A DNA stretch of 58,853 nucleotides from a virus, in the IMG/VR virus record IMGVR_UViG_3300017751_000017, positions 1 through 58,853 of that record. One strand, given 5' to 3'. The stretch's first letter is position 1; every line of letters begins with the position of its first letter. Below are positions 2,739 through 46,354 of the stretch, piece by piece. Position numbers and translations under genes: made by a program. Under the pieces are notes generated by a model that saw only the letters and a list, made by a program, of their open reading frames with translations, made no database searches and had not been told where the DNA came from.

Positions 2739-5081
2739 TTATTTCTTGAATCTTTTCTTCATAGCGTCAGCGTAGATTCCAGCGTCATATCCAAGCGTTG
2801 GCTTGTTTTCTTTTTTGGATTCTGTAACCATTGCTACTTTGTTTAAATCAATCTTAGTTTCTCTAAGATCTCTAGTTTGCCAGAAGTTTCTTACTTGATA
2901 CTCAGTATTTAAAGTATGATACTTTGATTGTGCAGCAACTTGATTTTGCTTAGCTTCGCTTAAGTTTGCCCATGTTTCTTTATATTCTAGTGGCATAGCC
3001 GCTAAGAAAAATGGTTCAGCGTTTTTATTCTCAACGATTAATTGAGATGATTCAATAATAGATGTAATTTCTCTTTCAGTCATAAAACCTCTTTTAGATA
3101 CTGCTGATCTAACTTCTGTTTTAGCGTCCTCGTTAAGAGCATTGTACTTTTCTATTGTAGATGATGATACAACTCTAAAGAAAGATGGATTTTCATTTTC
3201 TTTAATTTGAGCAGTTTCAATCAAATTGTTTAGTTTTGCAGAGATTTCACTTTTATAAGCTTCTAATGGATCTTGTGCTCCATCTTCACCTTCTGCTTCT
3301 TCTTCACCTTCACCAGATTCTACTTCGTCAGTATTACCTGTTGGTGGAATTTCTTGATCACTGTTATCTAAATCAGATTCTAAATCTTCAGCTTCTTCTC
3401 CAGCTTCATGTGCATCAACGTCGCCTTCTTTAGAATTATCTCCAGCTTCAACTTCTTCACCTTCAATTTCTTCTAAATCTTTTGCACCTTCTTCAGACTC
3501 TTCAACTTCTTCAGTTGCTTCTTCACCTTCAGCTTCAACTTCTTCTTCAGCTTCAACTTCTTCTTCAGCTTCAACTTCTTCTTCAGCTTCAACTTCGTCT
3601 TCTTCATCTACGTGATCTTCTGCATTTTCAACTTCTTCTTCAGTATCTTCTACTTTGTCATCTAGATCTTCAACTTCGCCTTTATCGTTAATGTCGTCTT
3701 CAATTTCTTCAGCTTTATCTTCTTCAAGTTCTTCAGCTGCATCGTCTTCAATTTCTTCAACTTCTTTACCGGCTTCTTCACCTTCATCTTCAGTAACTTC
3801 TTTAGCACCTTCTTCACCGTCTTCGATTTCATCTTCTAATTCGTCTGAATTATCTTCTGCTCTATCGTCAGCTTTTGCGTACTCTTCTCCGTCGCCGTCA
3901 ATAACGTCTGGTGTTTCATCAACAGTTTCATCTTCTAATTCTTCAGCGTCTACACCTGCACCATCTTCAACTACTAAGTTTTCGTTGATTGATTCTGCAA
4001 TGTATTCTGCGTATTCTGAAATAGATTGTAAGTTTTCTCTTAAATATTCTACATAACCTAAAAGATTAGCCGATGAATCAGCGCCTTCGTTATGAGATTC
4101 TGCTAAATAGTTAGCGAAATCTTTTACTTTAGTAATAGACTCAGCTAAATGCTCAGAATATTGAATACCTTGATCTACTTTCTCAGCAATGTTCTCAGTA
4201 TATGATATACCTTGATCTGCTTTCTCAGCAACATGCTCAGAATATTGAATAGATTGGTCTAATTTCTCAGCTAAATAAGTAACATACTCTGATAATGTAT
4301 TAACGTTATCAGCAATATGATCATTGTGAGATTTAATGTTTTCTACAGTCATGTCTTCACTAGCATCAGCAGCTTTAGCGTCCATTGACTCTTTTATGCC
4401 TTTAATTTCTTTTGCCAGATATTCAGAATATCTATTAAAGTCTTCGGCTTTTACGAATTCCTCCATGTTTTTATTTTCTTTTATTTCTATGTTTGTGTTT
4501 TGATTTTCAATATTTTCGGTAACATTTGCTTCGCCCATTTCATAAATGTACAAACCATTATCTGTTGTATATCCATAAGATTCATTGACTCTCTTAAGTT
4601 CTGCATTTTCAAAACCTGGGTCAGCTACTAGATCGTAAGTGAATAATTGCTTGATTTTTACTTTACCGTTTGATTCGACAGCTCCTGCTGCTCTTGATGA
4701 GATTTGTAATGGTACACCAGCATCAACTAATGCTTTAGCTTGTCTACCTGCATCAGTATCTAATAATCTGATTTTACCTCTTACTTCTTTGCTTTCTTTA
4801 TCATAAAAAAGTTCTTCAACGATGTGTGATACGTTTTTCAATGAAGTATCAAATTGTTGTGGATGATCTAATTCACCTAACAATTTAGAAGATTCAATTT
4901 TCTGCTGAAGAGCCTCAATTTGAGGAACATACTCATCTTCAGTGTAGATTCTATTGTTTCTATTTTTTTGATCAATTTGACCAAATACTCCTTCGAGAAC
5001 ATAATCTTTCTCCTCTGATGATGTTACATTCAGAGCCGATGACGACATTTCAACGATTAGCAAATCCTTTGCTTTTTTCAT
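2739..5081 (-). CDS. 21: Prohead protease gp21 fused to an acidic scaffold (gp22-like) domain
   Basis: This 780-aa protein has two parts. Residues 1-205 match the T4 prohead protease family (peptidase S80): GELDHP with candidate catalytic His73, QISSRAAG with the nucleophile among Ser128/Ser129, and YDLVADPGFENA. The protease matures the prohead by cutting after (I/L)-x-E, and its own start MKKAKDLLIVE fits such a site. Residues 206-370 hold repeated helical units (YxEHxAEKxDQGI), 370-600 are almost purely Glu/Asp/Val/Ala, and 610-780 form a more normal globular or helical end. T4 encodes protease and major scaffold separately as genes 21 and 22; here both lie in one frame. An internal ATG at 4466 (Met206) after AAAGAAAATAAAAAC could start a separate scaffold product. 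Confidence 0.85.
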   Translation of the reverse strand: MKKAKDLLIVEMSSSALNVTSSEEKDYVLEGVFGQIDQKNRNNRIYTEDEYVPQIEALQQKIESSKLLGELDHPQQFDTSLKNVSHIVEELFYDKESKEVRGKIRLLDTDAGRQAKALVDAGVPLQISSRAAGAVESNGKVKIKQLFTYDLVADPGFENAELKRVNESYGYTTDNGLYIYEMGEANVTENIENQNTNIEIKENKNMEEFVKAEDFNRYSEYLAKEIKGIKESMDAKAADASEDMTVENIKSHNDHIADNVNTLSEYVTYLAEKLDQSIQYSEHVAEKADQGISYTENIAEKVDQGIQYSEHLAESITKVKDFANYLAESHNEGADSSANLLGYVEYLRENLQSISEYAEYIAESINENLVVEDGAGVDAEELEDETVDETPDVIDGDGEEYAKADDRAEDNSDELEDEIEDGEEGAKEVTEDEGEEAGKEVEEIEDDAAEELEEDKAEEIEDDINDKGEVEDLDDKVEDTEEEVENAEDHVDEEDEVEAEEEVEAEEEVEAEEEVEAEGEEATEEVEESEEGAKDLEEIEGEEVEAGDNSKEGDVDAHEAGEEAEDLESDLDNSDQEIPPTGNTDEVESGEGEEEAEGEDGAQDPLEAYKSEISAKLNNLIETAQIKENENPSFFRVVSSSTIEKYNALNEDAKTEVRSAVSKRGFMTEREITSIIESSQLIVENKNAEPFFLAAMPLEYKETWANLSEAKQNQVAAQSKYHTLNTEYQVRNFWQTRDLRETKIDLNKVAMVTESKKENKPTLGYDAGIYADAMKKRFKK
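3542..3595 (-). repeat. 18-bp tandem repeat in scaffold region
   Basis: Three exact 18-bp copies (cttcttcagcttcaactt on the plus strand) plus a degenerate one before them encode Glu/Val/Ala hexapeptides in the acidic scaffold. The plus-strand Leu- and Ser-rich frames here are artefacts of this composition. Confidence 0.8.
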
Positions 5082-5536: not shown

Positions 5537-7135
5537 TTAGATGCCCATTCCATCGTCTTCTGCCTCAGGCTCTTCTGCTTCTTCTCTAGCTTTTGCTGCT
5601 TTTGCAGCTTCGTTTGATCTAATTTCATCATCAGACAATTTTAGATATTTTTTAACTAGGTATTCCTGATCGAAGTAATATTCTTCTTCCATTGTTTCTT
5701 GATTAGTAGTCATTAAACTATCTCTCATAGATCCAATAAATTCAAGTCTTTTTTCCATGATTTCCATGTGCTTCATTTCAGCAAACATGTTTTCTTCATT
5801 GAATCTTAAAGCTACTTGAGTTTTAAACTGTGGATCATCTACAAATTCTGGATATTTTAAACAGATTTGTAAATACAATGGCTTAACTAATATTTCTTGG
5901 AATGTAGATCTTAAACGCTTGATAAATTTACCAAACTTAATCTCATCTCTAATCATACCATCGGCTGCAAGGTTAAATTCCCCACCACCATCTTCATATA
6001 AGAATCTATTAAATGGAATCTTAGATACATGTTTTAATTTATCTGAGAAATATTTAAGTGCTTCAGTATCATTTAATTCTGGACCTTCACCTCCAAGTGT
6101 TTCTATTTCTGGTGAATCGCCGTCTTTAGAAGGTAACCAATATTCTTTACTAAACTGGAGCATTGGTTTACCATCAGTTGAAAGAGAAGCTGAGTCCCAA
6201 TCGAAATCTACTTGTTCTTTATAAGAATTCATAAGTTGAGAAAGTGATTGCTTCGCTCTTGTTTTAGATTTACCACCAACTGGGATAATAAACTTCATTC
6301 TAAATGAAGCATTGGTAACAGACCAGATCACTCTAGTGTGTTCCATAATTCTAAGTAGGTTAAATGCTCTTACTAATCTTTCTAAGTAAGAGACTCTCGA
6401 TGCTGTTGTAATAGACGAATAAGAGATGTATATGATCTGTGAATCATAAAGTTTTCTTTCTTTTACTGGATCATCTTTATATTGCACCCAAACTTTTTTA
6501 CCATCGTCGTTATTATATCCTGGGATTAACGTAACAGGATCAAGTTCTTTAAAACCTATAATCTCTTTTTGGTCTGGAGAATAAATTATCTCAAATGATA
6601 AGTAACCATCTATTAAGAATTTTCTATAATAATACCATGCTGATTGATCTTCTGTAAAACCAAAGTAGTGATAGATCTGTCTGAAATATCTATTAAGGTC
6701 TTTATTTACTTTATCAGATATATCAAGTCCTAAAACTTCAGGTTGAGCGAAGAAATTCTTCTCATCATATACTATAGTTTCATCACAAAGAATATCTAAA
6801 ATATCTTCGATCTCATCGTTGGTTGAGAATCTTCTTAATTCATCTCTCTTACTTATATAATCTTTATCAAAGAATGGTATGTTCTTCTTAAGATTAATAT
6901 CGGTCATTGACATTGCTGCAAATGCTCCGTAAATATCGTCGTTGTCGAAACCGAATGGGTTCATTTCCCCATAACCGATCTGGTCCTCCATTGGACCAAT
7001 GGCTTGTGACTGTCTAAGTACTAAATCATCATAGCGCATACCGAAGCTACTCAAGGTTTTAAGTGCGCTTGAGAGGCTAAACGGTTTTGTATTGACGCTC
7101 AATGGCCCGTTTCTTTTTTCTGTAAATCCTGCCAT
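5537..7135 (-). CDS. 20: Portal vertex protein gp20
   Basis: The 532-aa protein matches T4-family portal gp20 (524 aa in T4), the dodecamer at the unique vertex that starts prohead assembly and carries DNA in and out. Diagnostic stretches are the TNDEIEDILDILCDE region near residues 104-118, the EHTRVIWSVTNASFRMKFI segment near the middle, and IPFNRFLYEDGGGEFNL near residues 370-390. The C-terminus is acidic. It follows the gp4-197aa pair and precedes the core, protease and capsid genes, matching T4 morphogenesis order. A GATATATAA box lies 22 nt before the ATG. Confidence 0.95.
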   Translation of the reverse strand: MAGFTEKRNGPLSVNTKPFSLSSALKTLSSFGMRYDDLVLRQSQAIGPMEDQIGYGEMNPFGFDNDDIYGAFAAMSMTDINLKKNIPFFDKDYISKRDELRRFSTNDEIEDILDILCDETIVYDEKNFFAQPEVLGLDISDKVNKDLNRYFRQIYHYFGFTEDQSAWYYYRKFLIDGYLSFEIIYSPDQKEIIGFKELDPVTLIPGYNNDDGKKVWVQYKDDPVKERKLYDSQIIYISYSSITTASRVSYLERLVRAFNLLRIMEHTRVIWSVTNASFRMKFIIPVGGKSKTRAKQSLSQLMNSYKEQVDFDWDSASLSTDGKPMLQFSKEYWLPSKDGDSPEIETLGGEGPELNDTEALKYFSDKLKHVSKIPFNRFLYEDGGGEFNLAADGMIRDEIKFGKFIKRLRSTFQEILVKPLYLQICLKYPEFVDDPQFKTQVALRFNEENMFAEMKHMEIMEKRLEFIGSMRDSLMTTNQETMEEEYYFDQEYLVKKYLKLSDDEIRSNEAAKAAKAREEAEEPEAEDDGMGI

Positions 7136-7759: not shown

Positions 7760-8232
7760 TATTTAAGTGACTTTTCTGTAAGTACGATAAATCTCCATCC
7801 TCGGTTTTCTGACCAAGCCCTGGCGTACTTATATTTATCCATATTCTTAACATACTGTTCTGCTAAAAACTTATATGATTTAATGGCACCTTTGCTTCTT
7901 TTTTTAGGAGGCTGTGGTTTTTTTATCTGAGCTTCAGGTTTTATTTCAACTAGAAACTCTTCAAAACCTTCTTCTGTTTTTGTTTTCATATAGAAGTCGG
8001 GATAATATTTATGTTCTCTTTTATCAAAAGACCATATATACTTGATCTCAACAGGCTCACTTGCCCACTTAACAACATTATCTTTAGTATCGCACATTAT
8101 CATGAACTTTCTTTCCCAAGAAGATCTGTATATAATGGGTGTCGGGCCAATATATTTTTCTGGGTTTGTTGGAATAAAATATCCCTGTACAAATCCTGAA
8201 TTATTAGTTGGCTTGACATTTTTTATTGACAT
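7759..8232 (-). CDS. 4: Head completion protein gp4 (PD-(D/E)xK nuclease-like)
   Basis: The 157-aa protein matches T4 gp4 (about 150 aa), needed to finish DNA-filled heads. It carries the TnsA-like nuclease pattern of that family: YRSSWERKFM with Glu40, KYYPDFYMK with Asp79, and VEIKPEAQ with Glu96 and Lys98. The end, NRGWRFIVLTEKSL, closely follows the T4 gp4 ending. It overlaps the gp55 gene before it and the 197-aa gene after it by one base each (TAATG at both ends). Confidence 0.92.
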   Translation of the reverse strand: MSIKNVKPTNNSGFVQGYFIPTNPEKYIGPTPIIYRSSWERKFMIMCDTKDNVVKWASEPVEIKYIWSFDKREHKYYPDFYMKTKTEEGFEEFLVEIKPEAQIKKPQPPKKRSKGAIKSYKFLAEQYVKNMDKYKYARAWSENRGWRFIVLTEKSLK

Positions 8233-8609
8233 TAGATATTGAACATTCCACCATCTCCGCTAGAATCCTTTGAAGAAATCTTATCCATAGAAAGTGTGTT
8301 TTTATATTTTTGTGGGTGTATTTTATTCCAACCTTTCGCATATCCTCTTTTTGCTATCTCTGTAAAATATGCAAATGCGTTGGTATACTTAGGGTTGAAA
8401 TTACGCCAGTATTTTAGTAAATCTAACATGGCAAATTGTAAACAATCGTCTCTGTCGTCGCTATTTACATATGTTAATTTATTTATTGCTCTTTCTGCAA
8501 GTAATATTAACATCTTCTCTGCGGTAGGTGTTAACTTATCTTGATCTTTAGATTCTACTATTGCATTATAAAGATCTTTGTTATTGAGGTAATTCTTTTT
8601 TCTAGGCAT
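8232..8609 (-). CDS. 55: Late-transcription sigma factor gp55
   Basis: The 125-aa protein resembles short gp55 proteins of T4-like phages (T4 gp55 is 185 aa). gp55 is the sigma-family subunit that directs host RNA polymerase to late promoters together with the sliding clamp. The diagnostic part is the sigma region-2-like segment DCLQFAMLDLLKYW followed by FNPKYTNAFAYFTEI. The C-terminus (GDGGMFNI) is short and hydrophobic, as expected for a clamp contact, though that is inferred. The gene starts right after a terminator and leads into gp4 with a one-base overlap. It matches the GATATATAA boxes found before virion genes. Confidence 0.85.
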   Translation of the reverse strand: MPRKKNYLNNKDLYNAIVESKDQDKLTPTAEKMLILLAERAINKLTYVNSDDRDDCLQFAMLDLLKYWRNFNPKYTNAFAYFTEIAKRGYAKGWNKIHPQKYKNTLSMDKISSKDSSGDGGMFNI

Positions 8610-8692: not shown

Positions 8693-9880
8693 TTAAACTC
8701 CTGCACCTGCTTCTAATGCAACTTTGAATTTCTCAATTCTAAGAGGTTCGTCGTTTGCAAAAACAGTTAATGTGTCGTCTTTTCCAGCTGAAGCATATTC
8801 TACTGCATCAACTTTAATAGGATCACCTTCTTTTAAACCTTCTGCTTCTCTAGAAACTGTAGCATCTAGATAACCATCAGAAAGTCCAAGTAATTCTTCG
8901 TTTTGTGCATCTGTAAGTTCTTCACTTAATCTAGTGATTTCAGTGTTAATTAAATTATCAGCTGCTTTAATATCTGGAAGATTTCTATCTGCTTCGGCAA
9001 TTCTACCCTTTTGATCCTTTAAGAAAGCAATCATTTCGTGCATTAGTGAAATCTTATTTCTTTTAGCTTCTCTTCTTTCTGAAAATGATTCTAATAAATC
9101 TTCAACTAAATACGTTACATCAGCACCTGTCTGTTCTGCTACGTATTCTATTGCAGTATCTGGTAAAAGTTTACTAAATTTACCAAGAGTCGTAGTTTCA
9201 TTCATTCTCCAAACATATACGTTATGCCCTGCTTTCATAGTAGTAACAGATATGTTATTAGATTTTGACTCTACTAAGAAATCTAATCTTTTGTAAGATC
9301 CGTGGTTTTTACAAGTATTTTCAAATAAACTAAATAACGATTTATCTTGGTATTTGATATAACCTGAAGCCACGATTGTTTCTACTATAGAATTACTGTG
9401 ATTTAATAACTCAACATTATTTGCAAAATATGTATTTTCGTTAACGTTGTATGTAAACTTTATTCCTCTAGGAGATTTATTCATTGTAGAAAGAAATGCT
9501 TCTAAAAGAGCCACTTCATTCTTTGCTTCGTTTAAAGCATCTGCGCTAGATCCTCCTCCTAATTTTACAGTTTTAGTACTTTCTTTTAGAAACGCTAATT
9601 TTTCTTGAGCCTCTAGTGTTTTATTAAAGTTATCGAATGCATTTTCGTCTATTGAAGAAACTATGCTTCTTCTATTATAGTCATATATGAAATCAACAGT
9701 GGTTTCACTGATGTTAAACATTTTCTGACCAGAAAGTAAATCTGCGAAAGCCGAATTTGATTCATTGAACATACCTATGTGGCTTCCAACTACTTTGAAA
9801 TTTTGGCCAGCAACATTGAAAACATACCCGTTTGTATGCTCTAATACTGGTGAAATAATGTTTTTATTTAATTTTGCCAT
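8693..9880 (-). CDS. Virion protein candidate, unknown family
   Basis: A 395-aa protein without a recognised family. The N-terminal 90 residues look globular. Residues 90-130 and 250-320 are helical and charged (EEL, KRN and AEADR runs), and the last 60 residues look like a beta domain (KVDAVEYA, TLTVFANDEPLRI). It lies between the gp15-like tail gene and a terminator before gp55, with a GATATATAA box 25 nt before the ATG. That supports late expression and a structural or assembly role. Confidence 0.7.
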   Translation of the reverse strand: MAKLNKNIISPVLEHTNGYVFNVAGQNFKVVGSHIGMFNESNSAFADLLSGQKMFNISETTVDFIYDYNRRSIVSSIDENAFDNFNKTLEAQEKLAFLKESTKTVKLGGGSSADALNEAKNEVALLEAFLSTMNKSPRGIKFTYNVNENTYFANNVELLNHSNSIVETIVASGYIKYQDKSLFSLFENTCKNHGSYKRLDFLVESKSNNISVTTMKAGHNVYVWRMNETTTLGKFSKLLPDTAIEYVAEQTGADVTYLVEDLLESFSERREAKRNKISLMHEMIAFLKDQKGRIAEADRNLPDIKAADNLINTEITRLSEELTDAQNEELLGLSDGYLDATVSREAEGLKEGDPIKVDAVEYASAGKDDTLTVFANDEPLRIEKFKVALEAGAGV

Positions 9881-17998: not shown

Positions 17999-19207
17999 TT
18001 AAAATAACGACGATGCGTAAATTAGATTAGTGTCTAGTGTTTGTAGACCAATTGCTGTCAATACTCTATTAAGAGGATCGATCATTGCTTTTTCAAATTG
18101 AGTATCGTAATCAATTTCTGGTGCAATTTCATAAGGATGATCTCCTGGCATATATGCATATACTTCAGATATTGGTGATTTACAATTGTAGATCTTTAGT
18201 TTTTCACCGTTGCCGATAACCTTATATTTGTTTTTATATTTTTTATTTTTATTCAATAAGTAATTGTAATATCCTGCTGCTTTAACATTTGCTGGGCATT
18301 TTAGACCTATTTGAAATTCCTTCTGATCATCAACAATGTATTTGTCAATGTTGTTAGTCCTTCTATTAAAAGAGATCTCATCGATATCTGCAAGTTTAAA
18401 TTGCTTTTTAGTTTCTTTCATAAAGACTACTAATGATTGAAGATCTTCTGCAGTTGGAGTAACTCTACTTTTAAATATGATTTTAAGAGCTTCTACTAAT
18501 TTCTCTCTTGCGAATTTAGGGGTAGATGACTGGATAGTGTCGAATCCGATTGTTTTAATTTTCTTTAACGAAGTATGCCTATCTGTGATTTCTAATTTAT
18601 CATCCCATGCAATATTCTGAATGTATTTTTTCTTAGACATCCAAATACCATTATATGCAAGTGCTTCTAATTCAAACATCAAATAATTATCTGAGTTTCT
18701 TTTTTCTGCATATTTCTCCATACACTTAGTAATATAATCTCTAAGTCTAAAACCATAAAGCGCTAAAATAAACACATCGATTTCCATCTTCTCTGTTTCT
18801 TCTGGCCAAATTATAGATTCATATAGATCCTGAAATTGTACATAACATGAATCTGTATCAATATAAATTACTGATGGTTTTTCTATTTTACCTTTTACTT
18901 TAATTCCAAAGTGAGAATGTACTGCAGTATCTTTATGCCAAAAATCATTAACATATTTGTTAAGAATAGTCTCTGAATAAAGGATTGCATTTTTACCTTG
19001 TTTTGTAATTGACTCGGCAATGTCAATATTAAAAAAGTGGAACCACTTATTACCGAAGGCTCCGTATATCGAGTTTAATGTTAACTTAACTGCTTGTTCA
19101 TATGCAGTGTATTTGGCTGAAAGCTGCTTGTAGTGATCTACAAGCAGCTTCGCCTCATTATCATTTAATTCCTCGATAGATTTATTTTCTAGCGCTTCGA
19201 TATTCAT
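17999..19207 (-). CDS. 43B: DNA polymerase gp43, C-terminal half (motifs B and C)
   Basis: This 402-aa protein is the C-terminal part of the T4-type family B polymerase. It contains motif B KLTLNSIYGAFGNKW (Lys41, Asn45, Tyr48, Gly49) and motif C VIYIDTDSCYV (Asp117, Asp119). It also has the thumb-side KKKYIQNIAW region and a C-terminal IYASSLF that resembles the clamp-binding tail of gp43. The first 40 residues are a helical extension (IEELNDNEAKLLVDHYKQL) that would finish the fingers. The N-terminal half is 4.6 kb upstream at 23818-25221; together they total 869 aa, near T4's 898. The split leaves all catalytic motifs intact, so the halves should assemble in trans. Confidence 0.92.
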   Translation of the reverse strand: MNIEALENKSIEELNDNEAKLLVDHYKQLSAKYTAYEQAVKLTLNSIYGAFGNKWFHFFNIDIAESITKQGKNAILYSETILNKYVNDFWHKDTAVHSHFGIKVKGKIEKPSVIYIDTDSCYVQFQDLYESIIWPEETEKMEIDVFILALYGFRLRDYITKCMEKYAEKRNSDNYLMFELEALAYNGIWMSKKKYIQNIAWDDKLEITDRHTSLKKIKTIGFDTIQSSTPKFAREKLVEALKIIFKSRVTPTAEDLQSLVVFMKETKKQFKLADIDEISFNRRTNNIDKYIVDDQKEFQIGLKCPANVKAAGYYNYLLNKNKKYKNKYKVIGNGEKLKIYNCKSPISEVYAYMPGDHPYEIAPEIDYDTQFEKAMIDPLNRVLTAIGLQTLDTNLIYASSLF

Positions 19208-23817: not shown

Positions 23818-25221
23818 TTAGGACTTTAATTTTTTTTCAAGTTCATGTGCTTTTTCATAATATTCATAAGAAGTCTTTTTATATTCTTTACGTTGACTGT
23901 ATAAATCAGCCAATATCTTTTTAAGAATACTATCTTCTTTCTTATAAACAACTCCGTTTTCACAGACAATTACATCCTTGTCCTTTCTTCTTTCTGGAAT
24001 ATCCATTTCATTTACTTGTTCAACAAATGCATCCGGAGATATATTAAATTGACGCATAATTGATGGATATAGAGATGCAAAATCAAACGCTGAAACTCCA
24101 GAGTAATAACCTACAATAGGTTGTTTAACGAATGCTCCTTCAAATTTACCGTCTTTCTTTGCATCTTCTTTATTCCATTCCATTCCAATTTTTTTATTTT
24201 GACCAATTAGCTTTCTGGCTATAAGCGCTTCCGTTACTGCCACTGGAGATGCTGCTTTATAAAGTGGCATTCTAGTTATAGTTGCTAATGTCAATAGTAC
24301 TTCCATTGATCTAAGTTGTTTATCTATATAATATACTAAACATGAATCAACCACGTTATAGTAAATATATTTTTGGAAGTTATTTTCATATAATTCTTGT
24401 AAACCACCAGTGTATTTAATCTTTGCAACATCTAATACTGCACTAGATACAAAATCTAATGAATTAGATTCTTTTACAGCAACAGATCTATCATATTTAT
24501 CATATAACTGCATGTAATCCAATATTCCCATGTGTAATGGTCTACTATCGTTTCTATCTAAAGATCCAGTGATTGCCACGTCAGTCAGGTCTATTTGTAA
24601 TCTTTTACACCTATTGACTATATACTGCCAGTCATAGTTGATGAAATTCCAACCAGTCATCATTGGGAACTTAGGTAGAAACTTATGTAAGAATGTATAT
24701 ACCATGTTATACTCGTCATCAAACTTGTAATAACTGAATTCCCAATCCTGATCATAGTCTTTAAAATGAGCGTTGGTATCATCTTCAATCTTTTTGATTT
24801 GATCTGAACTCATATCTTCTAAACCTAAAACAATTGCTTTACGTTCAGGTGTAATGATAGAGAATGATAGAATTCTGGTTTTAGCTTCTTCTGCTTTTGG
24901 GAAACCATCTACAATTTCAGTTTCAATATCCACAAAATATGTACGTGGCATATTAAATTCGAAGATTTCATCTTGATCCTTCTGCGGTAGAGAATCCATA
25001 AAATAAAGCAAACTAAATTTATTAAAACTTCTTGAGATAGATCTCTTAATTGGGCGATTATCCCAGTTTCTAAATTTAATATCTTTCCAACGATCCTTTT
25101 CTTCAGTGACTACCCAATTTTCAAATTTGTTAACAGAATATCTTTTAAATGATACTTTGCCTTCTTTATCGTAATAGCTGATTATGACTTCGTTTTCTTT
25201 TTGCTCTATATCTAATAGCAT
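23818..25221 (-). CDS. 43A: DNA polymerase gp43, N-terminal half (exonuclease and motif A)
   Basis: The 467-aa protein is the first half of the T4-type family B polymerase. Proofreading motifs are intact: Exo I FVDIETE (Asp98, Glu100), Exo II WNFINYDWQ (Asp197) and Exo III YNVVDSCLV (Tyr288, Asp292). Polymerase motif A is FDFASLYPSI (Asp380). It ends after a basic helical stretch (YYEKAHELEKKLKS) in the fingers region, with a normal stop and no intein-like ending. The other half is at 17999-19207. T4-like Aeromonas phages are known to carry split gene 43, but there the intervening DNA differs. Confidence 0.93.
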   Translation of the reverse strand: MLLDIEQKENEVIISYYDKEGKVSFKRYSVNKFENWVVTEEKDRWKDIKFRNWDNRPIKRSISRSFNKFSLLYFMDSLPQKDQDEIFEFNMPRTYFVDIETEIVDGFPKAEEAKTRILSFSIITPERKAIVLGLEDMSSDQIKKIEDDTNAHFKDYDQDWEFSYYKFDDEYNMVYTFLHKFLPKFPMMTGWNFINYDWQYIVNRCKRLQIDLTDVAITGSLDRNDSRPLHMGILDYMQLYDKYDRSVAVKESNSLDFVSSAVLDVAKIKYTGGLQELYENNFQKYIYYNVVDSCLVYYIDKQLRSMEVLLTLATITRMPLYKAASPVAVTEALIARKLIGQNKKIGMEWNKEDAKKDGKFEGAFVKQPIVGYYSGVSAFDFASLYPSIMRQFNISPDAFVEQVNEMDIPERRKDKDVIVCENGVVYKKEDSILKKILADLYSQRKEYKKTSYEYYEKAHELEKKLKS

Positions 25222-33688: not shown

Positions 33689-35506
33689 TTACCAAGCGTA
33701 ATCGAATGTTTTAATTTTGTTAATTCTATCCTTAATAGATTTAGCGTATGTCTTAGCTTCTCTTTCGTACCATCTTTCACCTGAACCATATTTCTTTTCA
33801 GACTCTTCAGATCTTGCAACATAATCACAGTATCTTGAGTAATCGTCTAAAATAGATGACATGTGCGAAGAAGCATCTTTTAATTTTACAGTAGAACCTC
33901 TTTTGTTTTTACCAATATAGATTTCTCCGTATTCTGTTTTCTGTCCAGCTTTTAAACCGTCTTGAATTTGTTTAGCTAATTCATCAATTGCATCTGAAAC
34001 CATTTTATCTAACGGTAATGCAGCTGCTTTAGTAGCTAATATTTGTGTGTATCTGTTTTTGTTTTCTTGTTTGAAGTCTTTATCAGATTTGAATGCAATC
34101 GCACCAGCTTTAGCACTTGATCTTTCAGATCTTTTGTTTTCTGTAGAATATTTTTGTTGTAATAGATCTACGTTGATAACAACTGCTCTATCTGAAACTT
34201 CTGCAATTCTCTTTACATTATAAAGACCAGTTCCGCCCCATCCTTTATACTTCTTAGAAATACCAATAGTATCACTTGAATTATTAGGAGTAGTTTTTAA
34301 AGTTCTGTCTCTGTCTCTGCTGGAATATCTACTAGTCCATGTGTTTGTGTAAAATTCATTACCTCCACTTGCTACAGCTAATAAGTAACCTCCACCTGGG
34401 ATAACCTTGTTACTACCATATCCATCATTAGGTGCATATGGATTATCTTTCTCATTATCTGAGATATAGAAAACAATAGTGTTTGTTTGTTTTGCCTTGT
34501 ACGCTGTCATTGGATCAGTATCAATAAGATCTTCGTCTTGTACTTTATCTAAAGCAACTTTAGTTTTACCATAAAATGCTCCGGATAATGCTTTATCAAC
34601 TTTACCTCTAGTGCTTGTAAATAACTTAGAAAGTTTCATTGAACCAAAAGCTTCGTTTAAACTTTCTAAGAAACTTGAAAAAGATTCGTGTATGTGATCA
34701 GATTCTTCAGATTCTTTAATACCTAAGAAATCAGCAGCTGCTGCCTTTAATTCGTCATAAGTATATTTACCTGTTAGTGCGTCATCAAGAATTGTTCCTC
34801 CTTTTTTACCAATCGCGTATAATGATACATGATCAAATCCTAACCAAGGTCCAACGAATTCGTCTGTTGCTTTTAAACCTATATCAACAGATAATGTCCA
34901 TGATAAAGATCTTCTTCCTAGGAATTGGTCATTGTAACCTAACTTACCAGCTTTAATATAACCTGATGCATTTACTGCTTCTTCTATAGCTTCTTCTTCA
35001 GCTTCAGCTTCTTCTTTAATTAAAACTGGAAATGTTTTACCATTAAATTCGAACTCTTTTTTACCTTCGTCTTTTGCTTTTTTAGCCGCTGCTACAAATC
35101 CTCTACCTTCTTTTACTGGGTAAGTTTCACCATCAAATTCGAATTCTTTATCTCCGTTTTCTTTGGCCTTTCTTACAGCATCACCGAAAGCATTACCTTC
35201 TTCAAGATCTGCTTCAGAAATATTAATTGTTGTTAATACTCTTTGTCCAAACTTAGAAAGAGAAACACCTGCTTCAGAAACACTAAAGTATTTTGAGTTT
35301 CTTCTTAACCATCTTCCTGAATCATTTGACATTTCTTTTAAAATAGCATCAAATTCTTCTTGAGTTAACGTACCGTCAGCAATAGCTTCTAATATTTTGT
35401 TTCTAATTTTCGCGTGTGTTCCTGCAGTTTGTGCTGGATGGTTTTCAGTATATCTTCTCTTTAGAGTGATTTTACCTTCACCAATAAATTCTTCGAATTT
35501 TTTCAT
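33689..35506 (-). CDS. Large head-internal protein candidate with tandem repeats
   Basis: A 605-aa protein starting MKKFEEFIGE, a ten-residue peptide ending in I-G-E exactly like the T4 capsid-targeting sequence. Two 30-residue repeats follow near 105-131 and 135-161, each ending EFEF(D/N)GxT(Y/F)PV. Further candidate protease sites are LEE/G at 103 and LNE/A at 285; the latter lies in a second F-x-x-F-L-E-x-L-N-E segment. The C-terminal half (residues 286-605) is a folded region with GGGYLLAVASGG, AVVINVDLLQQKY and a long charged helix end. The enzymatic role is unknown. It may be processed into several pieces during head maturation. Confidence 0.7.
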   Translation of the reverse strand: MKKFEEFIGEGKITLKRRYTENHPAQTAGTHAKIRNKILEAIADGTLTQEEFDAILKEMSNDSGRWLRRNSKYFSVSEAGVSLSKFGQRVLTTINISEADLEEGNAFGDAVRKAKENGDKEFEFDGETYPVKEGRGFVAAAKKAKDEGKKEFEFNGKTFPVLIKEEAEAEEEAIEEAVNASGYIKAGKLGYNDQFLGRRSLSWTLSVDIGLKATDEFVGPWLGFDHVSLYAIGKKGGTILDDALTGKYTYDELKAAAADFLGIKESEESDHIHESFSSFLESLNEAFGSMKLSKLFTSTRGKVDKALSGAFYGKTKVALDKVQDEDLIDTDPMTAYKAKQTNTIVFYISDNEKDNPYAPNDGYGSNKVIPGGGYLLAVASGGNEFYTNTWTSRYSSRDRDRTLKTTPNNSSDTIGISKKYKGWGGTGLYNVKRIAEVSDRAVVINVDLLQQKYSTENKRSERSSAKAGAIAFKSDKDFKQENKNRYTQILATKAAALPLDKMVSDAIDELAKQIQDGLKAGQKTEYGEIYIGKNKRGSTVKLKDASSHMSSILDDYSRYCDYVARSEESEKKYGSGERWYEREAKTYAKSIKDRINKIKTFDYAW

Positions 35507-35543: not shown

Positions 35544-37388
35544 TTAGTCTTTCTTCACAAACTGTTCAAATGTCATGAATTTTGACTCTGCAACACCCAT
35601 AGAAACCTCTAATTTTGTTCTCAATTCAGTATACATGCTATGAATCGGCCTAGGTGTTAATTTTTTAAATGTCTTTTCATCACCGTCTAGCATTGCATTT
35701 CTAACTTGTGTTGCTGAAATGTTTTTACCAGATCTAGGGATTTCAAATAAACCAAAATCTTCTCTACAATTTAAAGATTCTCTGTATTCTGGTTTATCAA
35801 CTTGATACGAATATGTTTTAAGCCTATCAGTTCCTGTTCCCCAAAGTACTGGTTCGTAACCATCAGCTCTCATTGCGTTAAACATATAATCTATTGCCGC
35901 TCTATCTAAAATGTATACCTTTTCTATTGGGTATTTAGACTTTAATTTATTAAGCATTGCTAATTGAGTTTCTTCGTCATAAGGTCTTTTAAATGCATCT
36001 TCTTTTTTCTTAGTCTTTGATTTAATCAGTATTACAACAACAGGATGTCCGTTTTGTTTACTGATAGTATCTATTACTTTAGCATGACCTAGCGTAAACG
36101 GTTGAAATCTACCAACAAACATGTTAACTGGCTTTTTACCCTGGTCTGGATAATCTACAGTTAATCCTTCCATTATTGGACTTACATCACCGTTTAATTT
36201 TTGATTAATTAGATATTTTTTAAAATCCATTACATCTTTTTCGTTTGTTTTACCCATTATGATAGATTCTATCTCTTCGACTATTTCGTTAATCTGAGAC
36301 ATAAGATCTGAATTTATAATAGCAGTTTCTTTATTTCTCTTTTTTCTAAAAGAACCGAGAGCTATCTTAAAAAGCTCTGATAACACCTTGTTTTGTACTA
36401 ATGAGATTGTTTTCTCGTTAGAGATATATGTTGTATTAAGTTCGAAGTTTTCACCTTCTGCAAAATCTGCCGAATCAAAATCTGCACCTACATATTTAGT
36501 TGCGTGTTTTTCTACATAGGCATTAAATATAGATGACATTAATTCTACATATCTAAGATCTGCGTCTTCTTCCTTTAATTCTATATCTGATATATCGAAG
36601 CTTGTTAAAAATTCAACTAAATCTAGTATAGATATTTGATACATGTCAGATGGTTTTCTAGGTTCTGATTCAATTCTATCGAATCTTTCTAGTTTAAAAC
36701 TCTTAGGATTTCTATTCTCATAGAAGTTTACTACCAACGCATCGATATCTTTATCTAAATCCAGATTTAATGCTGATTTATTTCTACCGTTATCGAATAT
36801 ATTGTATATTAATCTTGTAAAAGATTCATTCTTAAATTTAGTTTTGAATTCTGATTCACCTAACGACAATAAAGATATTAGATCTTCTTTTTGATTTAAT
36901 GCTAATTGACCCTCAAACAAAACTGATATTTGTTGTACTTCTAGTTTCGATGCCCACTTCTCAAGAATTCTAGGGTCTCTAATAACTCTTTTAACTTTTG
37001 TAGGATCTGTTGCGTTAAGTACTTGTATGTGTGTTAATATTAAATTGTTTTTTGGTAATAAGTCATATTCTATGTCGATAGTTTTCTTATCTACCATATA
37101 ATCAAATCCAAATTTCCAATCTTTTGGCATTTCATTTAACGCTTCATCTGAAATAGTGTTAAAATGTTTAATGGCATTTTCATAATATTTAACGAGAGTT
37201 CTATCTACGCGATTCATTGCCGTTTTTGAACCACTCTTAAAGAATTCAAATTTACCAACCTCTTCTTTTCTTACGTGAAAACTTGATGCTTGCACTTTTT
37301 CTGTTACAACACATATGTTATTCAATAACTCATTAAAGTCATTGATATTAGTAGATTCAAAATATGTTTTTAGGTTTTGTAGTGCCAT
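35544..37388 (-). CDS. Fusion: nucleotidyltransferase-like domain plus NMN adenylyltransferase
   Basis: A 614-aa protein. Residues 420-600 form a NadM/NadR-type adenylyltransferase domain: MFVGRFQPFTLGHAKV (His435 of the HxGH-type motif), PYDEETQLAML, EPVLWGTGTDRL, and ISATQVRNAM. Such domains make NAD from NMN and ATP. Residues 35-160 (VGKFEFFKSGSKTAMNRVDR, WKFGFDYMVDKKTIDIEYD) look like part of a ligase-type or other nucleotide-transfer domain, but weakly. SPIMEG at 403-408 is a possible prohead-protease site just before the NadM-like domain, and the extreme C-terminus (FMTFEQFVKKD) looks like a misplaced targeting peptide. It precedes other packaged-protein candidates. Confidence 0.75.
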   Translation of the reverse strand: MALQNLKTYFESTNINDFNELLNNICVVTEKVQASSFHVRKEEVGKFEFFKSGSKTAMNRVDRTLVKYYENAIKHFNTISDEALNEMPKDWKFGFDYMVDKKTIDIEYDLLPKNNLILTHIQVLNATDPTKVKRVIRDPRILEKWASKLEVQQISVLFEGQLALNQKEDLISLLSLGESEFKTKFKNESFTRLIYNIFDNGRNKSALNLDLDKDIDALVVNFYENRNPKSFKLERFDRIESEPRKPSDMYQISILDLVEFLTSFDISDIELKEEDADLRYVELMSSIFNAYVEKHATKYVGADFDSADFAEGENFELNTTYISNEKTISLVQNKVLSELFKIALGSFRKKRNKETAIINSDLMSQINEIVEEIESIIMGKTNEKDVMDFKKYLINQKLNGDVSPIMEGLTVDYPDQGKKPVNMFVGRFQPFTLGHAKVIDTISKQNGHPVVVILIKSKTKKKEDAFKRPYDEETQLAMLNKLKSKYPIEKVYILDRAAIDYMFNAMRADGYEPVLWGTGTDRLKTYSYQVDKPEYRESLNCREDFGLFEIPRSGKNISATQVRNAMLDGDEKTFKKLTPRPIHSMYTELRTKLEVSMGVAESKFMTFEQFVKKD

Positions 37389-37400
37389 ATTATTTTTATT

Positions 37401-38672
37401 TTATCTGCCGTATTTGATGATTCCCATCAATTGATTGATTGCAGCAAAAGTGCCTGTTAATTTGTAAGTATGTCCTTTATATTTAAAAACTAAACCTTCA
37501 GTTGGTATAATAGACTCTATTCCACCAATTCTTTCTAATCTAGCAAGTTCAGCTTCTACTTTTTTAATTTGATCAATTCCACCTGATTTTTTAATCTTAG
37601 CAGCTTCAGTTCTAATTTGAGTATGTAGTCTTTGCATTTCTTTATCTGGCGATGCAGCTACAAAGTTACTTGCGTTTTTCAAAATTACTGATCCTAATTC
37701 TAAGAACAGATCTTCAAATGGTCTGATGTTTTCTTTATACTTCTTTTTAACATCTTCTTTATCAAACTTCTTAATTAGTGCAGCTTTGTCTTTACCAATA
37801 GCTTTGTCTAATGATCTTAAATTTAAAGTTTTCTTATCACCATATGCCCATCTTAATAATAAACCTTCTTTATGGTTTTGTTCTAGGTCGGGGAAATTTG
37901 TGTCTATGGTTTCTCTCCACCACATTTCGTGATATCTGGAAACTTCGTCAGCATCTGTTAGTTTATAACGATTCTTTAATGCTTCTACTTGTTTAATGAA
38001 TTTTGACTTGTTTGCTTCAAAGTCAACGTCTTTAGCAATCTTTAATACCTGCGGTGGAATTATAGTAAATGTGTTTTGGACATCTTTCTTTAATTCTTTT
38101 AAAGCACCTACTAATTCTGTTGCTAGGTTTTGAGTTCCTGTTTGATTACCTTCTCCGTCTGTTTCTACTATATTGTGAAATTGAATGACATCTCTATCAT
38201 AATATATCACATTAGGGTTTTTAGAGTAGATTAATTCCATGTTAACGAAATTTAATCCATTTGCAAACATTGATTGATCCTTAAGTTTTGGTAAAGCGTC
38301 AGCTAAATCTTTTGCTGCGAAAATATATGTTTCTTCTACTAATTTAGAAGCGTGACCAGTAAACATCTTAATAATACCGTTTAGGTCTATTGGATTTTTC
38401 ATTTGACCCTTATTTCTGGCAAACATTGTTTCGCCATCTTTAACAGTTGCAAATAAATTTTGACCATCTGTTTTTTCAGTAGGATCTTCTTCAAAATTAA
38501 GTTCTCCACTTAATCCAGATTCTATAAGCTTTTTAAAATCACCAAATGTCAATGACTTGTTATCAAACGGGTGTGACATGTGACCGGCTGCTCCACCTTC
38601 TAATATTAAATTAGATTCTTGTAAGTGAACCCTTTCGGTTATAAATGTACTAAAGTCTGTATATATTTTCAT
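37401..38672 (-). CDS. Polynucleotide-ligase-like nucleotidyltransferase, probably packaged
   Basis: A 423-aa protein. EKTDGQNLFAT at 66-76 matches ligase motif I (K-x-D-G, Lys67 the likely adenylated residue), followed by FARNKGQMKNP. TEGLVFKYKG and TYKLTG near the C-terminus match motifs IV and V. A long helical region (290-385) lies between. The start MKIYTDFSTFITE resembles a capsid-targeting peptide with cleavage after Glu13, and LILE/GGAAGHMSHPFD gives a second possible cut at Glu25 just before the domain. It may join or cap nucleic acid early after injection. The substrate is unknown; T4 DNA ligase (gp30) is not the closest pattern. Confidence 0.75.
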   Translation of the reverse strand: MKIYTDFSTFITERVHLQESNLILEGGAAGHMSHPFDNKSLTFGDFKKLIESGLSGELNFEEDPTEKTDGQNLFATVKDGETMFARNKGQMKNPIDLNGIIKMFTGHASKLVEETYIFAAKDLADALPKLKDQSMFANGLNFVNMELIYSKNPNVIYYDRDVIQFHNIVETDGEGNQTGTQNLATELVGALKELKKDVQNTFTIIPPQVLKIAKDVDFEANKSKFIKQVEALKNRYKLTDADEVSRYHEMWWRETIDTNFPDLEQNHKEGLLLRWAYGDKKTLNLRSLDKAIGKDKAALIKKFDKEDVKKKYKENIRPFEDLFLELGSVILKNASNFVAASPDKEMQRLHTQIRTEAAKIKKSGGIDQIKKVEAELARLERIGGIESIIPTEGLVFKYKGHTYKLTGTFAAINQLMGIIKYGR

Positions 38673-38685
38673 AGTAGTTGAAAGT

Positions 38686-38715
38686 AAAAACTAGAGAGTG
38701 TTATGCTCTCTAGTT
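38686..38715 (-). terminator. Hairpin terminator or attenuator between the 666-aa and ligase-like genes
   Basis: A perfect 10-bp stem (AACTAGAGAG / CTCTCTAGTT) with a 7-nt loop runs into five T on the minus strand. An AATATATAAAC box (38712-38722) precedes it, so the downstream gene may use its own start or partial read-through. Confidence 0.75.
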
Positions 38716-38727
38716 TATATATTGTTT

Positions 38728-40728
38728 TTACCCTAGTGATGATTTTAAGGCACCAACCATAGCACCATAATCTCCTGAGTTTTTAGAAATTAATCCATCT
38801 ACAACTTCACCTGCCTTATCTTCGTCAAAGTCATCTCCGAATGCTTTCTTTAATACTGAAAATGCATACTCTTTAAATTCTTCATCTGAAGTAACTTCTG
38901 CTTCTGTAACGATTGATTCTTTTATTATTTCTAATCCCCAGTAATTAGCCATATCATATTTTACTGGATAGATTGCTAAATCTCCTACGTTACCTTCAGT
39001 TGCTTCTATATTCTTAGTAAGGTAAAATTCTCCGGCCGCTTCTTCATATCCGTAATCAGCAGGATCAGCTTTCATCTCTTTTTTAAATGATTTTGCTATG
39101 TTTTTAAATTTACCTATTTCAATAACTTCTACTACATTGTCATTGTAATCTACACCTTTATCGCCTACTGTTAAATCTCCTTTAGCTTCATTTAAAGCTT
39201 TAACTTTAATCTTAAAAGTTTCATTAGATTCTTCAATATATTCTCCTAATTCTGGGTCACCCCAACCATCATCAGATGCTAACACTGATTGTAGATCTTC
39301 TCTTGAACCTGTTAATTCAACTTCTGGCCATCCACTCGGTCCGTTATTATCAATGATCTCCATTGTAACCTTATATTTCTTAAGTAATTTTTTTAATACT
39401 TTAGATCCAGGATCTGTTGCATCCATAACAACAGAAGCTTCTAATACACCTTCTGCATATTTAATGGCTTCAAACATTCTAAATTCAAAGTTGTCTTTTA
39501 CTTCACCTTCAAAGAAAGAGTTAAATCTATCTAGTAAATCTTGTCCCATTTTAGCAAAGCCACACTGCTCTAAGAATAATGCAGTTCCTTCTGCAATACC
39601 TTGACCTGACCATCCAGCTGCATTTGAAATTCTAGAATATTCTTGTTCTAATGCATCTTTAATTCTTGTTGATCCAATGTTTACTGACATTTTGCCTAAA
39701 CCATCAACTATTACTGGAATAGATCCTATATTACCTTTAATAGCACCTGCACATTTTTCTCTTTCTCTATGGAAATTAGCATCTTCCATTGAATCTAAGA
39801 ATAATTTTTTAATTGCACCTAATAAAGTTTTCTTATCGTTAGATGCGCCAATTGCATTTAATTTAGAGAATAAAATTTTATTGTATTGAGTTACTACTTT
39901 TTTAGCATCTCTCTTACCTTCTACTTTAATAGCTTCATTAACTACTGATTCATTGCACATTGAAAATAATTCTTGTGCAATCTTTTTTGCTTTAGAACCT
40001 TTATGTCCATAAGATTCAACTGTATCTAAAGCATCTTCCATTTCCATGCCGTGTAATTCTCCCATGTCTCCTCCTCTTTCATCTAAAAGATCCTGTAAGA
40101 TATTTTCAGCTTCTGATTCATTAACTACTGATTCAAATGCTGGTTTTAAATCTTTATCACCTGCATAGATATCTGCCATTAACCACTTTCCTGATTTTTC
40201 ATCAAAAAGGTAAATGAATTCTGCTCCGCCTTTATCACCTGCAGTTGAAATATATCTGCCAATGTTTTTAACGTTACCTTTCATATTATCAGATCCTCCG
40301 TAGTAGTTCATTCCACTTGGATCAGCTTCTAGGCCTGAATTATCTCCGTTTTTAAGAACCATGTTTAGTGGTGAACCACCTTTTAAATATGTTTTCTTAA
40401 TAAGTGGTAGCATGTTATCAGGATATGAATCATAATGTGTATACACAGACTCTATGTTACCTCTTTTGTCTATTTTACCAAATTGTCCTCTAGTTCCTTC
40501 TATGATTAAAAAGGATTCGTTCATTTCAACACCTCTTAATTTAGTAAAGAATTCAGATTTTTGTTCTTCTGATAATTCTTTTACAGATGTAACATTAAAT
40601 TCTGATAAGAGATCCTTAAACGTATTAGCTTCAGATTCTCTTTTTGCATTTTGTTCTTCTTGTAATTGAGCTTTATCGTTTTCAGTTTTTACCTTAGCAA
40701 ACTGCTCAAATGATTTTAGTTTTTCCAT
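38728..40728 (-). CDS. Large multi-segment head-internal protein candidate
   Basis: A 666-aa protein starting MEKLKSFEQFAKVKTE, with the F-x-x-F core of the targeting-type starts. Several segments end in hydrophobic-x-E before a small residue: FLIIE/G at 77, VNE/A at 265, and ALNE/A in the last quarter. Several lie at apparent domain borders, as if the protein were cut into parts. A central helical domain spans about 270-430, a beta-rich one (TMEIIDNN, WPEVELTG) about 440-500, and the acidic helical C-terminus contains FGDDFDEDKAGEVVDGL. No enzyme family is recognised. A GATATATAA box lies 34 nt before its ATG and opens the block. Confidence 0.7.
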   Translation of the reverse strand: MEKLKSFEQFAKVKTENDKAQLQEEQNAKRESEANTFKDLLSEFNVTSVKELSEEQKSEFFTKLRGVEMNESFLIIEGTRGQFGKIDKRGNIESVYTHYDSYPDNMLPLIKKTYLKGGSPLNMVLKNGDNSGLEADPSGMNYYGGSDNMKGNVKNIGRYISTAGDKGGAEFIYLFDEKSGKWLMADIYAGDKDLKPAFESVVNESEAENILQDLLDERGGDMGELHGMEMEDALDTVESYGHKGSKAKKIAQELFSMCNESVVNEAIKVEGKRDAKKVVTQYNKILFSKLNAIGASNDKKTLLGAIKKLFLDSMEDANFHREREKCAGAIKGNIGSIPVIVDGLGKMSVNIGSTRIKDALEQEYSRISNAAGWSGQGIAEGTALFLEQCGFAKMGQDLLDRFNSFFEGEVKDNFEFRMFEAIKYAEGVLEASVVMDATDPGSKVLKKLLKKYKVTMEIIDNNGPSGWPEVELTGSREDLQSVLASDDGWGDPELGEYIEESNETFKIKVKALNEAKGDLTVGDKGVDYNDNVVEVIEIGKFKNIAKSFKKEMKADPADYGYEEAAGEFYLTKNIEATEGNVGDLAIYPVKYDMANYWGLEIIKESIVTEAEVTSDEEFKEYAFSVLKKAFGDDFDEDKAGEVVDGLISKNSGDYGAMVGALKSSLG

Positions 40729-40761: not shown

Positions 40762-40770
40762 TTATATATC
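40762..40770 (-). promoter_or_regulatory. Candidate late promoter box opening the packaged-protein block
   Basis: Minus-strand GATATATAA overlaps the uvsW stop codon and lies 34 nt before the ATG at 40728. It suggests the 40.7-32.7 kb genes are late, in contrast to the recombination genes before them. Confidence 0.5.
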
Positions 40771-45985: not shown

Positions 45986-46354
45986 TTAGAATCTTTTACC
46001 AAGACTAGCACCTAGTGCGGCACCGACAAGTCTTGAAGTTAATAAATCATATAATATACCCTTTTGAATACCTAGTACTCTAGCTAATAATTTACCAACC
46101 GATTTACCTAAGGCAAAACCAGTTAAACCACCTATTATTGATCCTAAAAGACCTTCATTTGTCATCTCTTCATTAAGCTTATCTAAATCATAAGTACCGT
46201 CTTCCTTTTGATATGTATTACAAAATTCATCGATAGCTGCATCTATTTTAGCCTCTAATTCAGGAGACCATTCAGAGTTTAGATTCTCTTTAAGAATATC
46301 CATGTCTTGATCAGTAATCTTCTCTTCGACTAAGTATTTATTAAATGTTTTCAT
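45986..46354 (-). CDS. Small protein with capsid-targeting-like start and glycine-rich hydrophobic tail
   Basis: A 122-aa protein starting MKTFNKYLVE, ten residues ending in L-V-E and very close to the T4 internal-protein start MKTYQEFIAE. The middle is acidic and helical. The last 55 residues are a Gly-zipper-like hydrophobic segment (GSIIGGLTGFALGKSVGKLL, later VGAALGASLGKRF) that could insert in a membrane. A head protein that is injected and acts at the host membrane is a reasonable guess. It abuts RuvC. Confidence 0.7.
   Translation of the reverse strand: MKTFNKYLVEEKITDQDMDILKENLNSEWSPELEAKIDAAIDEFCNTYQKEDGTYDLDKLNEEMTNEGLLGSIIGGLTGFALGKSVGKLLARVLGIQKGILYDLLTSRLVGAALGASLGKRF

Follow-up and report, generated by a model that had tools for sequence, protein, structure and literature searches.

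A ligase-fold nucleotidyltransferase and an NMNAT-like fusion protein as candidate head-packaged, protease-trimmed enzymes of a T4-like ocean virus

The window analyzed here, a stretch of 58,853 nucleotides (positions 1 to 58,853 of IMG/VR virus record IMGVR_UViG_3300017751_000017), comes from a T4-like ocean virus, recognizable by its gp23, gp21, gp20, gp4, gp55, gp46/47, gp41, UvsX, split gp43, RNR, SSB, primase and UvsW genes. On its minus strand lie two neighboring genes that pose a question: why would such a phage keep side by side a 423-amino-acid (aa) ligase-fold protein and a 614-aa protein with a domain resembling nicotinamide mononucleotide (NMN) adenylyltransferases (NMNATs), both with candidate cut sites for the prohead protease? 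A preliminary description had placed both open reading frames (ORFs), the motifs K67-T-D-G70 and EGLVFK (392-397) of the 423-aa protein, the motifs GRFQPFTLGH (426-435) and ISATQVR (557-563) of the 614-aa protein, and the sites LILE/GG (E25) and IME/G (E407) exactly where we find them, and proposed that the virion could deliver a ready-made kit for nucleic acid repair and for the supply of nicotinamide adenine dinucleotide (NAD), an interpretation that our analysis partly supports.

The explanation that we favor, with modest confidence, is that the two genes form an enzyme module that would be expressed late and would enter the prohead by means of short capsid-targeting-like tags, located at the N-terminus of the ligase and at the C-terminus of the 614-aa fusion. 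A gp21-type protease would then trim the proteins at conserved hydrophobic-x-E/G, A or S sites, yielding three packaged products: the ligase-fold nucleotidyltransferase (residues 26-423), an RNA-ligase-2-like part (1-407) and an NMNAT-like part (408-601). The particle would probably inject both enzymes ready-made along with the DNA, and their early job would be to seal or modify broken nucleic acid ends, RNA (such as tRNA) being a more likely target than DNA, while the NMNAT-like enzyme would supply or recycle pyridine nucleotide. Several independent lines of evidence give good support to packaging and processing, although both are unproven in this phage group; that both proteins are packaged, cleaved and injected, and act on RNA and on NMN, is what we infer from them.

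Both candidate sites of the preliminary description are conserved and fall beside the catalytic domains. A glutamate at the position of E25, with a hydrophobic residue at P3 and a small one at P1', is present in 48/48 near relatives, is near-invariant in fused distant relatives, and is the sole conserved site of this form among the 34 glutamates of the 423-aa protein; E407 is likewise kept in 47/47 near relatives (P3 I, V or L; P1' G or A) and is the sole such site among the 53 glutamates of the 614-aa protein. In the structural models E25 lies inside a disordered N-terminus (residues 1-30, predicted local distance difference test [pLDDT] 32-44) and E407 inside a disordered inter-domain linker (about residues 380-409, pLDDT 39-47), and this predicted placement does add weight to their reading as cut sites. 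A third site, E601 (VAE/S), had been overlooked, as had the C-terminal tag that it adjoins. Residues fitting T[FY]xx[FY][ILMV] close the protein in each of the 47 relatives, which have 35 distinct 30-residue C-termini (0.2% of shuffles), and in 40 of the 47 they are preceded by hydrophobic-x-E followed by S, G or A, an arrangement found in 0.06% of shuffles. Cleavage at both 407 and 601 would release a 408-601 fragment, which is nearly the structural NMNAT domain (418-597). At the other end of the module, 82% of the 40 distinct ligase N-termini fit the tag pattern, compared with 5% of shuffles and 0% in the uvsW, uvsY, primase, SSB and RuvC families.

In T4, gp21 cuts after L/I-x-E, ten residues of IPIII suffice for targeting, and Alt undergoes processing at both termini (PMC9026906). 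At the sequence level, the predicted tags and the adjoining hydrophobic-x-E sites of the window proteins resemble those of T4-type ejected internal head proteins: IPI, IPII, IPIII and Alt likewise start with a short targeting tag followed by hydrophobic-x-E, and a further cut in Alt falls close to the C-terminus. The T4 internal head proteins are inhibitors or an ADP-ribosyltransferase, whereas the cuts in the window pair would release separate enzyme domains.

The proposed cutter is encoded in the window and, as an S77/gp21-family protease, in 14/14 of the records tested. It is 780 aa long and ends in a long repetitive acidic tail (the corresponding frames of relatives span about 635-831 aa), and is possibly a protease-scaffold (gp21-gp22) fusion. 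Our scan for late promoters used an ATATATA variant in place of the canonical T4 late promoter TATAAATA, which we dropped as the late signal of this window. The motif ATATATA[AGT] lies upstream of 85% of the family of the first gene in the cluster (666 aa), 60% of a neighboring 605-aa family and 52% of a 122-aa family, compared with 0-3% of replication genes; it may be the late promoter of this phage clade, replacing TATAAATA. Within the window it occurs about 14-41 bases upstream of the genes at 2739-5081, 5537-7135, 8693-9880, 33689-35506, 38728-40728 and others, which are head and tagged genes.

The two enzymes go together in more than one arrangement. Wherever enough sequence is available (71/71 loci), the ligase gene is followed by the fusion gene, at a median gap of 10 bases, and the same two genes are adjacent in the 462-kb genome LR756500. 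More distantly, 21 of 22 complete ORFs carry the nucleotidyltransferase and the ligase fused, the exception (L116) having the nucleotidyltransferase in the gene immediately upstream. Several of these fusions add a P-loop kinase-like domain, and zinc-protease-like or other pieces are also joined; those inspected stand directly before terminase- and portal-like genes, neighbors that were recognized by reading the sequence. Microcystis phage Mel-JY01 has such a fusion, with IIAE/GG between the domains, seven genes before terminase. Since the ligase and the NMNAT-like enzyme are kept together or fused in so many arrangements, they would seem to share a joint task. Polyvalent proteins (PMC5512222) are similarly multi-domain late proteins encoded near virion genes, and the extra pieces of the distant fusions recall them, whereas the window family has its domains in two genes and seems to be cut by the prohead protease, not by an internal peptidase.

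Some of the distant relatives deserve individual mention. The giant marine phage ORFs L150:1347-6275, L124:3438-7298 and L117:570-4091 (1.2-1.6 thousand aa) combine nucleotidyltransferase and ligase, some with the P-loop kinase-like domain, and all three directly precede terminase- and portal-like genes. In the huge phage LR756508, a 915-aa protein (L100:4483-7230) joins a segment that reads as ParB-like to nucleotidyltransferase and ligase and has no EGG site, and in LR756500 a 127-aa protein (L099:10260-10643) ends in FIKTFNEFKTEYK, possibly another C-terminal head-targeting tag. A search of genome contigs for a cellular origin returned six loci, all in metagenome-assembled genomes, of which L185 and L187 stand beside terminase- and portal-like genes.

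Evidence from virions comes from cyanophages. Proteins described as cytidylyltransferase or NMNAT-like have been found by mass spectrometry in particles of S-SM1 (PMC3037559), S-CREM2 (PMC10665884), S-SZBM1 (PMC9146016), and S-SCSM1 and S-CBWM1 (PMC9602691). These proteins (T4-GC190, S-CREM2 gp154, S-SZBM1_140, S-SCSM1 ORF91 and that of S-CBWM1) resemble the window domain in being HIGH-type nucleotidyltransferases of T4-like phages. S-CREM2 gp154 begins with MKNFSSFLTEA, a tag of the same kind as in the window proteins that the P-RSM1-type family also carries (MKxFxxFLxEA), and lies three genes after uvsW, downstream of which the window nucleotidyltransferase is also found. In P-RSM1-type cyanophages the nucleotidyltransferase again adjoins a protein with a KxDG motif, here KWDG, belonging to DUF6267, relatives of which occur in 465 phage records; one cyanophage member (L102:3941-4831), beside its nucleotidyltransferase, has both KWDG and EGFV ligase-like motifs. 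Because profile comparison of the 423-aa ligase, the Rnl2-like domain and cyanophage DUF6267 detected no relation, the reading of DUF6267 as a ligase comes down to these two motifs. The cyanophage proteins differ from those of the window in that their tag is N-terminal, whereas in the window the nucleotidyltransferase is C-terminal to an Rnl2-like domain, is tagged at its C-terminus, and has a ligase of another family as its partner.

The best surviving alternative, which we regard as doubtful, is that the two proteins are ordinary intracellular enzymes, acting in the infected cell that produces them, and that the tags and sites are short degenerate motifs of little meaning. Their upstream neighbors are replication genes (uvsW, uvsY, primase and SSB); in 66 of the 71 loci holding the pair, uvsW is found upstream and in the same orientation. 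Several observations weigh against the explanation that we favor, the first of them also on the side of this alternative. Conserved sites of the same form number two in uvsW and one in primase, with none in uvsY, SSB or RuvC, so a motif count alone proves nothing. Three distant relatives (L140, L149 and L182, which read LLLM/GG) have M in place of E25, LR756508 lacks an E25-type site though it encodes the protease, and the distant LR756500-type protein has T at P3 of the E407 site and no C-terminal tag. Only 15% of ligase genes, and no NMNAT-fusion gene, have the promoter-like motif in front of them, so late expression of the pair would depend on read-through, and the window shows no enrichment of the exact T4 late promoter. 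The authors of the cyanophage studies themselves caution about carry-over of abundant proteins (PMC10665884, PMC9602691). Nor is a full set of RNA-repair enzymes seen, as the polynucleotide kinase-like AAA_33 was not found in the records of 13 of 14 relatives. Against a purely intracellular role, however, stand tags far more frequent than in shuffles and absent from those same replication genes, sites placed in disorder at domain borders, NMNAT-like homologues in cyanophage particles (PMC10665884, PMC9602691, PMC9146016, PMC3037559), and distant fusions lying within the terminase/portal cluster.

As to what the packaged enzymes would do, the 423-aa protein is, by its predicted structure, a divergent RNA/DNA-ligase-fold nucleotidyltransferase. 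An alignment of 31 sequences, with identity down to about 31%, keeps K67-x-D-G70, R86, E146, E392-G-x-V-F and K404-x-T-G, with K67, D69, G70, E392 and G393 invariant; the motif I KxDG, the motif IV EGxV, the motif V lysine and the fold place the protein in the covalent nucleotidyltransferase superfamily of ligases and capping enzymes. The model (predicted template modeling score 0.80) shows 30 disordered residues containing a short helix (7-14), followed by a single domain. Foldseek placed T4 Rnl1 at the top with weak E-values (1.8e-3), and a VIA structural search gave Z 8.8 to Naegleria RNA ligase, 50 of the 50 top rows being ligases or capping enzymes; RNA ligases rank first, and DNA ligases match too. 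The ligase-like identity proposed in the preliminary description is supported by this predicted fold. The T4 RNA ligases 1 and 2 and the Naegleria enzyme, the best structural matches, share the fold and motifs I, IV and V, whereas the 423-aa protein has no family assignment in Pfam or PHROG and carries a mostly helical insertion of about 180 residues. Neither the Pfam RNA_ligase profile PF09414 nor the NAD+-dependent LigA adenylation-domain profile PF01653 matched it or 14 relatives. Neither of the T4 ligases is known to be a head protein.

The 614-aa protein is modeled as a fusion of an RNA-ligase-2-like domain, a flexible linker and an NMNAT-like domain. The preliminary description, which took it for a NadM-type enzyme, was right about the NMNAT-type fold of residues 408-614 and missed the ligase-like N-terminal half. 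For this half Foldseek returned T4 Rnl2 (2hvr, E 3.2e-7 over 364 columns, with a low TM score), including the C-terminal domain of Rnl2, and tRNA ligases are also among the matches. The motif I lysine K31 is kept in 47/47 near relatives, yet KxQA replaces KxHG and D replaces the E of motif IV; because of these alterations, which set it apart from the T4 and Naegleria enzymes, and because the lysine is lost in the distant LR756500 homologue, its activity is uncertain. The C-terminal domain matches Pfam CTP_transf_like (E 3.7e-9, a HIGH-type nucleotidyltransferase), and its (H/T)xGH and SxTxxR residues R427, T432, G434, H435, S558, T560 and R563 are present in 47/47 relatives. A scan of "A4" against PDB sequences gave no useful match.

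Different substrates for this pair make up a second alternative, which we judge unlikely: the HIGH-type transferase might act on another substrate, such as CTP or ATP together with a phospho-sugar or with the end of an RNA or DNA, the ligase-fold protein might transfer a nucleotide to a target other than in ligation, and together they would modify nucleic acid, protein or a metabolite, not repair it. PHROG as well as Pfam labels the domain cytidyltransferase, VIA scores it almost as high against PPAT (Z about 13) as against NadD and NadM (about 14), capping enzymes are among the matches of the ligase, and the ligase insertion is unusual. Set against this, the closest solved sequences are archaeal and cyanobacterial NMNATs (M. 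jannaschii NMNAT 1f9a, E 2.6e-5; bifunctional NMNAT/Nudix 2qjo, E 4.6e-5), and by fold the partner comes closest to end-joining RNA ligases; as to NMN as the substrate, NMNATs come first by sequence but hardly ahead of PPAT by fold.

We take the sealing of RNA ends as the first-choice function for two reasons: each ligase-type domain finds its best matches among RNA ligases, and the records of 7 of 14 relatives, close ones included, contain a separate ATP-dependent gp30-like DNA ligase. In view of that separate DNA ligase the 423-aa protein is not simply a replicative ligase, and we rejected it as the phage's only DNA ligase. That it is instead a DNA-end or nick ligase readying the incoming genome is improbable: it has the ligase fold, matches DNA ligases as well, and would be delivered together with DNA, but RNA ligases rank first, the companion N-terminal domain is Rnl2-like, and that separate DNA ligase is again at hand.

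Equally hard to sustain is a NARP2-like NAD supply kit, in which an injected NMNAT would rebuild NAD+ once host NADases fire. The window domain shares its fold and its TxGH and SxTxxR motifs with NadM/NadR NMN adenylyltransferases and NARP2, and phage salvage by NadV and NadM is known, but the survey in PMC9503650, which documents this salvage, states that every NadM phage also has NadV, and no NadV or NAPRTase family member was found in the records of 14 relatives (100-212 kb, possibly incomplete). An NMNAT needs NMN, whereas the products of NADases are nicotinamide and ADP-ribose, not NMN (PMC12774641); here it is paired with a ligase and not with a phosphoribosyltransferase; and, unlike NadM/NadR and NARP2, the window protein has no Nudix or kinase domain. 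The idea of NAD supply against NAD-depleting defenses is thereby weakened, whereas delivery of enzymes by the virion draws support from the tags, the conserved sites, the protease and the cyanophage virion homologues. A coupled reaction is also conceivable, if quite speculative: the NMNAT-like enzyme would make or recycle a pyridine dinucleotide, and the ligase-fold partner would draw on this as the donor of adenylate (or NMN) for RNA ends, so that the protease-matured set delivered at entry would amount to a head-packaged system for NAD-coupled RNA end repair or capping.

Table 1. Positions in the window of the two genes, their proposed domains, tags and sites, and related features
Feature	Position	Strand	Basis
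423-aa ligase-fold nucleotidyltransferase gene	37401..38672	-	ORF; invariant KxDG, EGxVF, KxTG; no fold matches other than RNA/DNA ligases and capping enzymes
Residues 1-25 of the ligase: MKIYTDFSTFITE as head-targeting-like tag, with a helix at 7-14, and a disordered propeptide with LILE as its last residues	38598..38672	-	tag statistics; pLDDT 32-44
Candidate gp21-type cut E25/G26 (LILE/GG)	38597..38598	-	conservation in near and fused distant relatives
Motif I, K67-T-D-G70, candidate adenylated lysine	38463..38474	-	invariant residues in 31 sequences
Largely helical insertion, about residues 205-385, between motifs IIIa and IV	37518..38060	-	model secondary structure; boundaries approximate
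Motifs IV and V, EGLVFKYKGHTYK (residues 392-404)	37461..37499	-	E392, G393, V395, F396, K404 invariant
614-aa fusion gene: Rnl2-like domain, linker, NMNAT-like domain, C-terminal tag	35544..37388	-	ORF; model and fold searches
RNA-ligase-2-like domain (about residues 1-360), with K31 retained, KVQA as motif I and D in motif IV	36309..37388	-	Foldseek; column counts
Disordered linker, about residues 380-409	36162..36251	-	pLDDT 39-47
Candidate gp21-type cut E407/G408 (IME/G)	36167..36168	-	conservation in near relatives
NMNAT-like domain (residues 418-597), TxGH 432-435, SATQVR 558-563	35598..36137	-	Pfam, PDB sequence matches, VIA
Candidate gp21-type cut E601/S602 (VAE/S)	35585..35586	-	site then tag in relatives
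C-terminal head-targeting-like tag S602-D614, SKFMTFEQFVKKD	35547..35585	-	pattern in relatives
gp21-family prohead protease with long acidic tail, proposed cutter	2739..5081	-	PHROG head maturation protease, E 6e-33
gp55-like late sigma factor	8232..8609	-	PHROG late sigma, E 1.2e-11
Late-promoter-like ATATATAA upstream of ligase gene	38715..38722	-	in only 15% of ligase relatives
Late-promoter-like ATATATAA upstream of 666-aa gene	40762..40769	-	85% of 40 relatives; 0-3% for uvsW, uvsY, primase, RuvC, SSB
666-aa neighbor, tag-like start MEKLKSFEQFAK, six conserved candidate cut sites	38728..40728	-	strict tag pattern in only 14% of distinct relatives
605-aa neighbor, N-terminus MKKFEEFIGE/G	33689..35506	-	tag, site and promoter-motif analysis

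The pair is surrounded by variable proteins, several with tag-like starts, and its 666-aa and 605-aa neighbors are likely internal head proteins (Table 1). The conserved sites of the 666-aa protein are of the hydrophobic-x-E/small form and its length varies among relatives, so that it resembles a multiply cut core polyprotein. Further away, a 122-aa protein (45986-46354), the third of the families with the late-promoter-like motif, has the tag-like start MKTFNKYLVEE in 88% of distinct relatives. The T4-type DNA polymerase gp43 is divided between two ORFs (17999-19207 and 23818-25221) with RNR and other genes between them, and a search for tRNA genes across the window found none.

Phages that inject ready-made enzymes act ahead of any gene expression. 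If the reading of this locus as a head-packaged enzyme module is true, nucleic acid ligases would join the repertoire of injected proteins, and the recurrent, unexplained NMNAT-like proteins of virions would gain a constant partner, a ligase. The case further suggests that the prohead protease may be put to use in splitting enzyme domains apart, and that a targeting tag may equally be C-terminal.

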